Positions 12,605 through 17,523 of a stretch of DNA of 64,000 bases are shown here, in pieces. A model generated the notes under the pieces. It saw only the letters and a program-made list of their open reading frames with translations, ran no database searches and was not told the DNA's origin. The DNA is taken from positions 2,418,001-2,482,000 of the forward strand of contig NZ_AP017569.1 in assembly GCF_002355655.1 (NCBI RefSeq), in the 5' to 3' direction. The translations under genes and the position numbers were made by a program. This stretch comes from Halorubrum trapanicum (GTDB taxonomy: Archaea > Halobacteriota > Halobacteria > Halobacteriales > Haloferacaceae). Position 1 is the first letter of the stretch, and every line of letters starts with the position of its first letter.

Positions 12605-13609
12605 TCACGCTAAATCCCGGTAGTCCCGCTCTTCGTCGGCGTGTGCGCGGACCCACAGCTCGCCGATCCGCGAGAGGCTCGTCCGGTAGGACTTCCCGTG
12701 TTCCTCGCGCTCGATGTACCCCTTGCCGCCGGGCCCCAACCGATCAACGTTATAAATGACCTTCGAGCGGAACGAGTCCGTGTACTCCTCGTTGAGCTCG
12801 GCCGCGAGCGTCTCCGCCAGCTCGGAGACGGACTCGAACTCGCCGTGTTCGCCCAGCGTGAACAGGACCAGCTCCTCGAACGGCTTGACGTTCTGGAAGG
12901 AGGCGACCGGGAGCTCGATCACGTGGCGGTCGCCGATTTTCTTCGCCCCGATGGTGGTGCCGCGCTCGTCGAACTCCGCGAGGAGGTCCGTGGTGCTCGC
13001 CAGCCGGTCGGCGACGCGGTCGGGGTCGACGCCCGCCTCGGCGAGCGCCTCGTCGCTCTCGCTCCCGCCGCTCCCCTCGTCGAGGTCGCGCAGGAGGTCC
13101 CGCGTCGCGCGCAACTCCTCCGCGAGTTCGGTCTCCAAGTACTTCTCGGGGGCCGTGTAGTAGGTGTGAATCCGGTCGCGGTCCGCCTGCCGCTCGACCA
13201 TGATCGAGTGGGCCGCGGTCGCGAACGCGAAGGAGACGGGGCGGGGCATCGAACAGAGGTTCACCCACACCTCGCGGTCGTCGACGGCGTCGCCCGCTCC
13301 CGGTTCGTCGTCTGCCCCGTCGACCCCCTCGTCCCGGTCGAGTTCGGCGTTGATCAGGTCGAACGCGCGCTCGAAGGCGGCGTCGTAGTCGTACACGTCG
13401 TCCAGCCGCTCGCGGACCGTCTCGGCGCCGAGCAGGTTCGTGAAGTCCTGCTCCAACTTGCGCGCGATGTTGCGCGAGTACTCGACGTTGGCCTCGCTGC
13501 CGACGGTGCCCTCCAACAGGATCACCCGGTCGACGTCGAACTGGTCCCGGATGAGGGGGGCGATCATCCGGTCGTAGTCGAACCCGACGGGCACGACGTG
13601 GGTCTGCAT
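12605..13609 (-). CDS. HFX_2341/DUF6293-type regulator: CARF-like domain plus winged helix
   Basis: 334 residues. The N-terminal half (MQTHVVPVGFDYDRMIAPLI, then ADRVILLEG-like DVDRVILLEGTVGS, WVNLCSMPRPVSFAFATAAH) has the alternating strand/helix look of a Rossmann-like, CARF-type ligand domain. The C-terminal 100 residues (FEELVLFTLGEHGEFESVSE to GKSYRTSLSRIGELWVRAH) form a winged helix. This is the layout of the haloarchaeal HFX_2341 family. Nucleotide-ligand binding is inferred from fold resemblance. The ATG at 13609 sits about 26 bp after a strong TATA box (TTTTTATAAA), so the transcript is probably leaderless. No CRISPR genes are nearby; structured element copy 1 lies directly downstream. 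Confidence 0.78.
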   Translation of the reverse strand: MQTHVVPVGFDYDRMIAPLIRDQFDVDRVILLEGTVGSEANVEYSRNIARKLEQDFTNLLGAETVRERLDDVYDYDAAFERAFDLINAELDRDEGVDGADDEPGAGDAVDDREVWVNLCSMPRPVSFAFATAAHSIMVERQADRDRIHTYYTAPEKYLETELAEELRATRDLLRDLDEGSGGSESDEALAEAGVDPDRVADRLASTTDLLAEFDERGTTIGAKKIGDRHVIELPVASFQNVKPFEELVLFTLGEHGEFESVSELAETLAAELNEEYTDSFRSKVIYNVDRLGPGGKGYIEREEHGKSYRTSLSRIGELWVRAHADEERDYRDLA

Positions 13610-13630
13610 ACGCGGGACGTAACGGTGCCG

Positions 13631-13640
13631 TTTATAAAAA
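13631..13640 (-). promoter_or_regulatory. TATA box of the HFX_2341-type regulator gene
   Basis: Minus-strand TTTTTATAAA centred about 26 bp before the ATG at 13609, ideal for a leaderless transcript. It rules out a much longer open frame that continues upstream. Confidence 0.65.
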
Positions 13641-13798
13641 GAACCAGTTCCCTCATCGTTCAACTGAACACCGACCACACCGCTCTCCAGTGGGTCGGGG
13701 GGTTTCGGCAAGAGGGGAATCTGACTACGACCTTCGTGAAAGCCCACTCTAGAAGACCCGTTGTGTCCCAACCCGCTGTGTGGATACAGCCATCGTGA

Positions 13799-14061: not shown

Positions 14062-17000
14062 ATGACGAGCCGGTGTACGTTTCGACTCGACCCCGAGGAG
14101 GCCGGCGCGGCGACGGCGGAGGTCGCCGCGGAGATAGACGAGGAGTGGCGCTGCCCGCACGACGCGCACCCGGAGGCCGACCGCTGCGTGTTCCACCTGT
14201 CGAGCGACGCCCGCGACGACCTCGGCGTCGACGCAGACGCCGTCGCCGAGCGCCTCCGAGACGTGGCCGGCGAACGGGGGAAGGCCGCGAAACGCCTGCT
14301 CGGCGCCCGCCTCGACGGCGTCTCGATCCGCCACGAGATCGTCGACGCCGTCGACAAGCACCCCCTCGACCTCCGGGGCGCGACGGTGACCGGCACCCTA
14401 GATCTGACCGCGTCGGAGTTCGAGGGCCGGATCGACCTCTCCGGCGCGGAGATCGGCGCGATCGACTGGACGGAGTCGGAATTCGACGCGCCGGTCGACC
14501 TCTCCGGCGCCGTCGTCCGCGGCGAGACGACCCTCACCGGCGCCGTCTTCGAGGGCGACGTGGACCTCTCGGGCGCGACGTTCGAGGGGCCGGTCGACGC
14601 CCGGGAGGCCAGGTTCAACGGCGACACCTCGCTGCGCGAGGCGCGGTTCCGCGGCGCGGCGGCGTTTGACGGCGCCGAGTTCCGCGGCGACGCGAACCTC
14701 TTGGACGACGACGCGTGCTTCGAGGACGCCCGCTTCGACGCCCCCGCCTCGTTCACGAAGGCCGGTTTCCGGTACGCGGATTTCGTCGGCTGCGAGTTCC
14801 GCGACGCGGCGGCGTTCGACCGGGCGACCTTCGGCGGCGACGCCGAGTTCGCGGACGCGACGTTCGGCGACTACGCCGACTTCGCGGAGGCCCGGTTCGA
14901 CGGCGACACCGCGTTCTCGGGGGCGCTGTTCGAGGCGCCGGCGACGTTCGCGGGCGCGGAGTTCCGCGGCCGGGACAACCTCGAAGACGACGACCTCTCG
15001 TTCGCGGACGCGACGTTCGAGGGGGAAGCGACGTTCCGGCGCGCGGTCGTCGGCTTCGCCGACTTGTCGCGGCTGACGGCCGCAGAGGAGCTGGTATTCG
15101 ACGAGACGCGTTTCACCGAGGAGGTCAGCTTCGAGGACGCGACGCTGTCGTCGCTCTCCTGTGACGAGGCGCGGTTCGAAAGCGACGCGAGCTTCGAGGG
15201 CGTCGCGGTCGACGGGGACGCGACGTTCAGGGGCGCGGAGTTCGAGGGCGGTGACAACGTCGACGACGACGACCTCTCGTTCGCGGACGCGGTGTTCGGC
15301 GGCGACGTCGACTTCCTCAGCGCCCGGTTCGGGTACAGCGACTTCTCCGGCGCCGCGTTCGGCGGGGCGGCCGTCTTCGACGAGTCGCGCTTCGACGACG
15401 ACCTCGCGTTCTCCGACGCGGCCTTCGACGACCGAGCGAGCTTCGACGAGTGCCGGTTCGACGACGACGCCGCCTTCGAGCGGGCGACCTTCGCCGGCGC
15501 GGCCAGCTTCCGCGGCGCGGAGTTCGACGGCGGCGACAACGTCCGCGACGACGACGTGACGTTCGCCGACGCCGCGTTCGCCGACGAGGCCGACTTCTAC
15601 CGCGCGGAGTTCGAGTACGCCAACTTCGAGGCCGCGGCGTTCGAGCGGCCCGCGAACTTCGAGGCGACCCACTTCGCCGGCGAGGGCGACTTCCGCGACG
15701 CGGCGTTCCGCGGCGAGACGACGTTCGCCGAGGCGCGGTTCGACGACGACGCGACGTTCGAGGACGCGGCGTTCCGCGACGCCGCCTCGTTCCTCGGCGT
15801 CGAGTTCGTCGGCGACTACCACGAGGACGACGACGCCGCGTTCTCGGGCGCCGTCTTCGCCGACGAGGCCGACTTCCGCGAGATCGAGTTCGGTCAGGCC
15901 GGCTTCGACGACGCGCGCTTCCGGGGGCCGGTGTCGTTCCGCGAGTCGCTGTTCGGTCGCGCGCGCTTCGAGGACGCGGTCTGTGCGGAGTCGGTCGACC
16001 TGTCGTACACCCGGTTCACCGAGCCGGTCTCGTTCGACGGCATCGCGTTCGAGTCCGGCGTCACCGCCGACGAGGCGCGGTTCGAGAGCGACGCGAGCTT
16101 CGCCGAGTCGTCGTTCGAGGAGGGAGCGACGTTCCGCGGCGTCGAGTTTCAGGGGGGCGCCCACACGGTCACCGACGCGAACTTCGAGGCCGCGACGTTC
16201 GCGGACAGCGCCGACTTCAAGCTCGCCGAGTTCCGCGTCGCGGACTTCTCCGGCGCGGAGTTCGAGGGGACGGCGCTGTTCGAGCGCACCGTCTTCGAAG
16301 ACGACGCCACCTTCCGGAACGCGGCGTTCGGCGCGTCGGCCGTCTTCTCGCGCTCCCGGTTCCTCGAGGAGTCCGACTTCTCCAGCTGCCGCTTCGAGGA
16401 CGAGGCGCACTTCGACGAGCTTCGCTTCGAGAAGGACAGCACGTTCGCCGACGCCGAGTTCGGCGGCGACGCGACGTTTCGCTCGGCGGAGTTCGAGGGG
16501 AGCGCGAACATGCACAACGACGACGCCAGCTTCGAGACGGCGACGTTCCGCGGCACGGCGGACTTCGACAAGGCGTCGTTCCTCTACGCGAACTTCGCGC
16601 ACACGACGTTCGCCCGGGACGCCGCGTTCACCGAGGCAGAGTTCGAACACTCGGTCGCCTTCCGCCCGCGGCCCGCCGAGTCCGAGACGCTCGTCGACCT
16701 GAGCGGCGCGGTCGTGCGCGGCGGGACGCTCGGCCAGCCGGAGCAGGGCGACGCCTTCTACGACTGTACGCACGCGGAGGTCCGGGAGGTCACGCTCGAT
16801 GACGAGCACTGTACGCACGGCCTGTTCAACCACTTCCGGTTCTGTAACACCGACTTCCACGGCTTCGACTTCACCGCCCACAAGACGTACCTCGCGCGCA
16901 ACAACTGGGAGATCCACACCTTCGCCGCCTCTGAGGCGGCCGACCGATCGGAGACCGAGTCGGAGTTCACGCCCGCGAGGCTGGAGAACACGTATCTGAA

Positions 17001-17523
17001 GGCGAAGAACTGCGCGAGCGACTTCGGCGACCGTAAGGCCGCGGCCGAGTTCTTCATCAAGGAGATGGTGTACCGGCGCCGGAAGAACTGGCGCGCCGCC
17101 TTCACCCGGGAGGAAGCGGTGTCGCCGGCCAACCGCACGAAGGCGCTCGGCAAGTGGGTCGGGAACAAGGTGCTCCACCAGACGTGCGGGTACGGCGAGC
17201 GGCTCTGGCGGGTCGTGTACGTCTCCGCGGTGACGGTGTTCATCTGGGGCGTGTTGTACACCACGACGACGCAGGGCACGACCGGCAGCAGCGAGCTCAC
17301 GACGCAGGGGATCGGCGGTCTCTCGAACCTCTTCTCGCCGGAGGGAGCGGTCGTCCTCGGCAAGAACATGTACTTCAGCATGGTGACGTTCACCACGCTC
17401 GGCTACGGGGACGTCCAGCCGGTCGGGTCGACGGCGCGCGCGCTCGCCGGGCTCGAGGCGTTCCTCGGCGCACTCCTCGTCGCGCTCGTCGTCTTCGTGC
17501 TGGGCCGTCGGGTCGCGTGGTGA
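14062..17523 (+). CDS. Giant pentapeptide-like phenylalanine-repeat protein fused to a two-TM K+-channel pore
   Basis: 1,153 residues. A short N-terminal region has Cys/His pairs (WRCPHDAHPEADRCVFH). Residues about 110-900 consist of repeats such as ADFSGAEF and ATFGDYADF. Phe residues alternate 5 and 6 apart, an 11-residue unit like the Pentapeptide_3 family. Seven acid-rich insertions (for example DNLEDDDLSF) begin near residues 204, 298, 391, 485, 579, 693 and 808: a 94-residue super-repeat, later about 114. The C-terminus has a linker with Cys/His residues, a membrane segment (VVYVSAVTVFIWGVLY), a pore loop with the K+ filter TLGYGD (1113-1117 region) and a last membrane segment. It is probably a channel gated by or anchored through a long beta-solenoid; ligand unknown. 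No pore residue looks missing. Confidence 0.9.
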   Translation: MTSRCTFRLDPEEAGAATAEVAAEIDEEWRCPHDAHPEADRCVFHLSSDARDDLGVDADAVAERLRDVAGERGKAAKRLLGARLDGVSIRHEIVDAVDKHPLDLRGATVTGTLDLTASEFEGRIDLSGAEIGAIDWTESEFDAPVDLSGAVVRGETTLTGAVFEGDVDLSGATFEGPVDAREARFNGDTSLREARFRGAAAFDGAEFRGDANLLDDDACFEDARFDAPASFTKAGFRYADFVGCEFRDAAAFDRATFGGDAEFADATFGDYADFAEARFDGDTAFSGALFEAPATFAGAEFRGRDNLEDDDLSFADATFEGEATFRRAVVGFADLSRLTAAEELVFDETRFTEEVSFEDATLSSLSCDEARFESDASFEGVAVDGDATFRGAEFEGGDNVDDDDLSFADAVFGGDVDFLSARFGYSDFSGAAFGGAAVFDESRFDDDLAFSDAAFDDRASFDECRFDDDAAFERATFAGAASFRGAEFDGGDNVRDDDVTFADAAFADEADFYRAEFEYANFEAAAFERPANFEATHFAGEGDFRDAAFRGETTFAEARFDDDATFEDAAFRDAASFLGVEFVGDYHEDDDAAFSGAVFADEADFREIEFGQAGFDDARFRGPVSFRESLFGRARFEDAVCAESVDLSYTRFTEPVSFDGIAFESGVTADEARFESDASFAESSFEEGATFRGVEFQGGAHTVTDANFEAATFADSADFKLAEFRVADFSGAEFEGTALFERTVFEDDATFRNAAFGASAVFSRSRFLEESDFSSCRFEDEAHFDELRFEKDSTFADAEFGGDATFRSAEFEGSANMHNDDASFETATFRGTADFDKASFLYANFAHTTFARDAAFTEAEFEHSVAFRPRPAESETLVDLSGAVVRGGTLGQPEQGDAFYDCTHAEVREVTLDDEHCTHGLFNHFRFCNTDFHGFDFTAHKTYLARNNWEIHTFAASEAADRSETESEFTPARLENTYLKAKNCASDFGDRKAAAEFFIKEMVYRRRKNWRAAFTREEAVSPANRTKALGKWVGNKVLHQTCGYGERLWRVVYVSAVTVFIWGVLYTTTTQGTTGSSELTTQGIGGLSNLFSPEGAVVLGKNMYFSMVTFTTLGYGDVQPVGSTARALAGLEAFLGALLVALVVFVLGRRVAW

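Follow-up and report, generated by a model that had tools for sequence, protein, structure and literature searches.

The locus considered here lies at positions 14062 to 17523 of the window, the 64,000-nucleotide stretch of the Halorubrum trapanicum genome that was analysed, and it raises two questions: how a very long repeat domain serves the potassium-channel pore to which it is joined, and what the evenly spaced loops on that repeat domain are for. The gene encodes a 1153 aa protein with the following layout:

14062..17523, + strand: whole open reading frame, pentapeptide-repeat K+-channel-type protein (1153 aa)
14074..14196, + strand: N-terminal C5/C31/C42/H45 motif, residues 5-45, zinc-knuckle-like by spacing only
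14371..16662, + strand: pentapeptide-repeat β-solenoid, residues 104-867, 133 core positions or ~33 coils (PF13576, AlphaFold2 model, core parse)
16981..17088, + strand: linker segment LENTYLKAKN...YRRRKN (residues 974-1009) between solenoid and pore, conserved in 41 family C-termini
17203..17259, + strand: TM1, ~residues 1048-1066 (hydropathy)
17395..17412, + strand: selectivity filter TLGYGD, residues 1112-1117 (sequence, PF07885)
17431..17508, + strand: TM2, ~residues 1124-1149 (hydropathy, PF07885)

Pentapeptide repeat (Rfr) proteins are defined by at least eight contiguous pentapeptides at four per coil; the window protein has 133 core positions at four per coil in an AlphaFold2 (AF2) solenoid, and Pfam Pentapeptide_3 matches 22 stretches of it (E 1.1e-92). 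A K+ channel pore is defined by the Pfam gathering score together with a GYG filter; Ion_trans_2 matches residues 1100-1151 (E 1.5e-10) at 41.2 bits against a gathering score of 22.5, and the terminal pore with TLGYGD of the original prediction stands. The protein ends in GRRVAW directly after TM2; neither an RCK nor a Kir C-terminal domain follows TM2, which places it outside the class of RCK- or Kir-gated channels. The N-terminal C5/C31/C42/H45 motif has no match in Pfam; a C-x-[FWLY]-H pattern ahead of the repeat domain is present in 35 of 49 family members, with variants in the others. The closest named orthologues are those of H. distributum, H. californiense, H. persicum and strain Atlit-26R, with 86-94% identity.

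The base unit of the solenoid is 11 residues, composed of sides of five and six, and two units form each coil; autocorrelation of the protein shows peaks at 11, 94, 187 and 281. AF2 models the solenoid with pLDDT mostly 85-97 from approximately residue 130 to approximately residue 810, and the best structural matches of the model include the pentapeptide proteins HetL, QnrB1, EfsQnr and MfpA. Pfam, the AF2 model and autocorrelation agree on the giant β-solenoid with a 94-residue super-repeat that had been read from the DNA. The Rfr fold rises by ~4.8 Å per coil, which gives a rod length of ~16 nm and a loop spacing of 19 or 24 Å. The quadrilateral β-solenoid predicted for the window protein is shared with QnrB1, HetL, MfpA and AlbG; however, these proteins lack a channel, while the window protein has ~33 coils and seven loops in whole-coil register in addition to its channel. 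Insertion loops at solenoid corners occur in QnrB1, AlbG and HetL; QnrB1 and HetL have ~9-10 coils, and the Rfr proteins described have one or two loops (PMC8145042).

The 94-residue super-repeat results from a seven-residue insertion at each loop (six residues in loops 5 and 6), always at the same corner. The loops, as placed by the AF2 model and the core parse, are:

14683..14712, + strand: loop 1, RGDANLLDDD (residues 208-217)
14965..14994, + strand: loop 2, RGRDNLEDDD (302-311), 16 sides or 4 coils after loop 1
15244..15273, + strand: loop 3, EGGDNVDDDD (395-404), 4 coils after loop 2
15526..15555, + strand: loop 4, DGGDNVRDDD (489-498), 4 coils after loop 3
15808..15834, + strand: loop 5, VGDYHEDDD (583-591), 4 coils after loop 4
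16150..16176, + strand: loop 6, QGGAHTVTD (697-705), 5 coils after loop 5, without DDD
16495..16524, + strand: loop 7, EGSANMHNDD (812-821), 5 coils after loop 6, without DDD

The loop starts originally given (residues 204, 298, 391, 485, 579, 693 and 808, with spacings of 94, 93, 94, 94, 114 and 115) are exact; in the core parse the loops come after cores 207, 301, 394, 488, 582, 696 and 811, and in the AF2 model each is a single long gap separating strands. The loop-to-loop distances are 16, 16, 16, 16, 20 and 20 sides, which correspond to 4, 4, 4, 4, 5 and 5 whole coils. The expectation that the loops leave the same face at regular distances is borne out by the AF2 model and the core parse, in which all seven occupy one corner; the even decoration of the rod is confirmed and follows a simpler rule, that of whole coils. 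Were the loops placed at random, all six intervals would be multiples of four with a chance of ~2e-4; duplication of a module would also yield intervals in multiples of four. A parse with 17 sides per repeat, in which ANL inside the loop is taken as a core position, was rejected: the AF2 secondary structure lacks a strand at that point, and a single long step is needed to keep the alternation of 5 and 6 in phase.

The register extends to relatives, which carry 3-9 loops at intervals of 3, 4, 5, 6 or 7 coils and keep the whole-coil spacing. Parsing the family without imposing a parity gives 51 intervals divisible by four, 38 of those being exactly 16; the remaining non-multiple intervals are mostly attributable to loops missed by the parser and to the end of the solenoid. 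In the parity-constrained parse, 15 of 17 family members have every loop on a single corner; spurious parser loops outside the solenoid show no whole-coil rule. The first interval, from loop 1 to loop 2, is peculiar to this strain at 94 residues; it is 116 in the nearest relatives, one 22-residue coil more, and the extra coil (giving 20 sides, or 5 coils) is present in the four named orthologues and in a further orthologue, L097. Examined for irregular loops and for homologues without the spacing or the pore, the family is found to keep both spacing and pore. A further mark of the rod is found on the side that immediately precedes the loop corner, where Arg/Lys occupies 28 of 132 positions compared to 30 of 499 elsewhere (p 1.4e-6); this ladder is seen in relatives too (0.147 vs 0.06-0.08).

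The loops are strongly constrained, and it is conservation, not acidity alone, that distinguishes them. In five orthologues 66 of 68 loop residues (97%) are invariant compared to 312 of 431 (72%) on the other solenoid surface (p 1e-6), while acidic residues account for 29/68 (43%) in the loops and 153/431 (36%) on the rest of the solenoid surface (Fisher p = 0.28); at this p value, acid richness is nothing special in this halophilic protein. The original prediction described seven acid-rich, DDD-containing loops; the number stands, DDD is found in only five, and the excess of acid over the surrounding surface is not significant. It further suggested that the loops are possibly cation-binding fingers; that they are, and that Ca2+, Mg2+ or K+ is sensed directly by the channel through them, is considered quite unlikely. 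Strong conservation would suit such fingers, as would the [DE][DE][DN] triad, which comes after a conserved N in the majority of 78 loops, the family motif being F-x-G-[GDES]-[ADS]-N-x-x-[DE]-[DE]-[DN]-x-[ST]-F; however, loop 6 is invariant with one acid in its nine residues, the acidity of the loops does not significantly exceed that of their surroundings, and the 1153 aa protein has no match to a Pfam cation-binding domain. Cation binding is not supported beyond this resemblance in sequence.

The pore domain shares TM1, pore helix, TLGYGD and TM2 with KirBac, NaK and KcsA (PF07885), and by profile the family domain matches solved K+ channels with best E of 1e-6 and 5e-10 (down to 1e-6 with KirBac); it differs in that the large domain of the window protein precedes TM1 and nothing follows TM2. 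Two-helix K+ pores have both termini on the inner side of the membrane, and a cytoplasmic position is therefore expected for the N-terminal rod; the basic stretches on either side of TM1 and TM2 point the same way. Close orthologues share with the window protein a near-invariant pore (105/113 residues) and TLGYGD. Across 41 diverse family C-termini the filter is canonical [TS][LVI]G[YF]G in 20, a close variant in 6, LEYV in 3 and unrelated residues in 12, while the rest of the C-terminal domain is retained where the filter is lost. As the filter is often lost in paralogues, ion conduction cannot be the job of the whole family; the suggestion that the channel suits a high-K+ cell finds no evidence, and about half of the 41 C-termini have lost the K+ filter motif. 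The same counts would fit a solenoid that acts as a protein-interaction or DNA-mimic scaffold, with the two-helix domain mainly a membrane anchor and its conduction vestigial; this is unlikely, given that TLGYGD and an almost invariant pore are retained in this protein and in close orthologues. Tandem pairs are present in three genomes (L043 3747-12306, L100 2880-11608 and L099 2859-7527), one copy with TLGYGD and the other with ITLEYV for the filter; the LEYV copy in L099 is truncated. The LEYV tandem copy is perhaps a regulatory or decoy subunit.

The architecture had been called unusual; it is real, well-ordered and little-studied, and widespread rather than unusual. Sequences related to the last 275 residues are encoded by 177 of 292 Halobacteria genomes sampled, representing 61 of 77 genera, the weakest matches being to the pore only. 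A minimal bacterial form, 320 residues long, is present in an Aeromonas record and combines the C/H motif with pentapeptides, a linker and TLGYGD. Relatives are also found on 21 plasmids (tblastn, annotated plasmids) with ~25-38% identity in the C-terminal part, and more weakly matching ones elsewhere in the phylum; phage records gave no match to the family. Solenoid length ranges from a few coils up to ~40, and presence is patchy, with several copies per genome and some on plasmids. Haloarchaeal records named 'Pentapeptide repeat-containing protein' or 'potassium channel family protein' belong to the same family and are known by annotation only; a literature search found no paper on the haloarchaeal family and no functional test. 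A paralogue of ~1360 aa from the same genome (L040 2076-6152) has HEAT repeats followed by the C/H motif, pentapeptides and a TLGYGD pore; the loop parser finds no acid loops in its solenoid.

HalA, the effector of the Hailong anti-phage system, is an ion channel, and poly-dA (oligo-dA) synthesised by HalB blocks it (PMC13275509); the effector is suppressed by single-stranded DNA that Hailong itself produces (PMC12657230). As in the window protein, HalA has pentapeptide-type repeats, a linker and a two-helix pore ending the protein; however, HalA is 338 aa compared to 1153 aa, the window gene has no HalB partner, and DNA gating and a role in defence are described for HalA. The DNA is said to sit in a 'crown' domain adjoining the channel domain of HalA, according to the Hailong paper; the database entry PDB 9nyi contains HalA with oligodeoxyadenylate in 4 chains. 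Remote homology to HalA is observed for the family: the NCBIfam HalA model (NF051894) matches relative L118 over its last 131 positions (208-338 of 338, E 7.8e-12) and relative L117 over positions 71-301 (E 7e-11), and the HalA domain order together with channel-domain homology is seen in L117, L118, L120 and L125. With a curated cut-off of 250 bits, the best HalA score among the relatives tested is 45 bits, and the window protein reaches 17.5 bits. The window protein itself matches HalA weakly, in its repeat region (E 0.0019), and its C-terminal 190 residues gave no match. A PDB search with the pore part of L117 did not return HalA; the link to HalA comes from the NCBIfam model match. The window protein plausibly works like HalA, yet is not classed as HalA.

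The reading favoured here, with moderate confidence, is that the window protein is a tetrameric K+ channel opened or closed by a cytoplasmic pentapeptide rod acting as the sensor. Four rods of ~33 coils each would be tied to the inner end of TM1 via the conserved helical linker, and each would present a long surface marked on one side, with a near-invariant loop every four or five coils and the Arg/Lys ladder on the preceding side. A binding partner, whether a protein, a nucleic acid, a nucleotide or the adjacent rods, would engage this marked surface, and its binding or release may pull on TM1 and alter K+ flow; the kind of gating would be that of HalA, in which the cytoplasmic domain binds oligo-dA and the channel is held shut. 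We infer the tetramer, gating by the rod and the nature of the ligand. AF2 gives a pLDDT of ~30 across linker and pore from an alignment of five near-identical sequences; as this part of the model is unreliable, the connection of rod to gate is also one that we infer. Together with this low pLDDT, the lack of a conserved gene partner, the loss of the filter in paralogues and the weak HalA score count against a rod-gated channel.

It is also conceivable, if rather unlikely, that the protein is a HalA-like defence effector, in which the rod binds an inhibitory signal (an oligonucleotide or an infection-sensitive partner) and, once that signal is lost, the channel opens and the infected cell is brought to a stop. 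The architecture and detectable homology common to the relatives and HalA would be consistent with this, as would the blocking of the HalA channel by oligo-dA (PMC13275509, PMC12657230) and the patchy, multi-copy and partly plasmid-borne occurrence of the family; however, HalB is absent from the scanned neighbours of the channel gene and a full HalB was not found in the genome, which has one weak match over 31 of 211 positions ~0.78 Mb away, PADLOC gives no match, the window protein scores below the HalA cut-off, and the neighbouring genes resemble ordinary metabolic and regulatory genes. A broader and decidedly tentative proposal, of doubtful likelihood, places HalA, as one short bacterial branch, within an older superfamily of pentapeptide-gated channels that is mostly archaeal. 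In the giant haloarchaeal members, the near-invariant loops, held strictly in whole-coil register next to the Arg/Lys ladder, would form a ratchet; through it the tetramer's rods, or else a long ligand (polyanionic or protein), would zip together and set the gate, and the LEYV tandem copies would be regulatory subunits. If the favoured reading of a rod-gated channel is true, a widespread and unstudied archaeal channel family unites pentapeptide-repeat scaffolds with ligand-gated K+ pores, and the Hailong effector HalA gains an evolutionary background; the whole-coil register of the loops is a concrete structural rule, and the loops and Arg ladder mark candidate functional residues.

Among the family neighbourhoods compared, no conserved gene partner of the channel gene was found. 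An HFX_2341-like regulator and a formamidase were rejected as operon partners, being common to close Halorubrum orthologues only. The HFX_2341-like regulator (window 12605-13771, - strand) lies directly upstream of the channel gene in divergent orientation, and close Halorubrum orthologues retain it. An open frame of 926 aa (14398-17178, - strand) runs antisense to the repeat gene and is probably a by-product of the GC-rich repeats.
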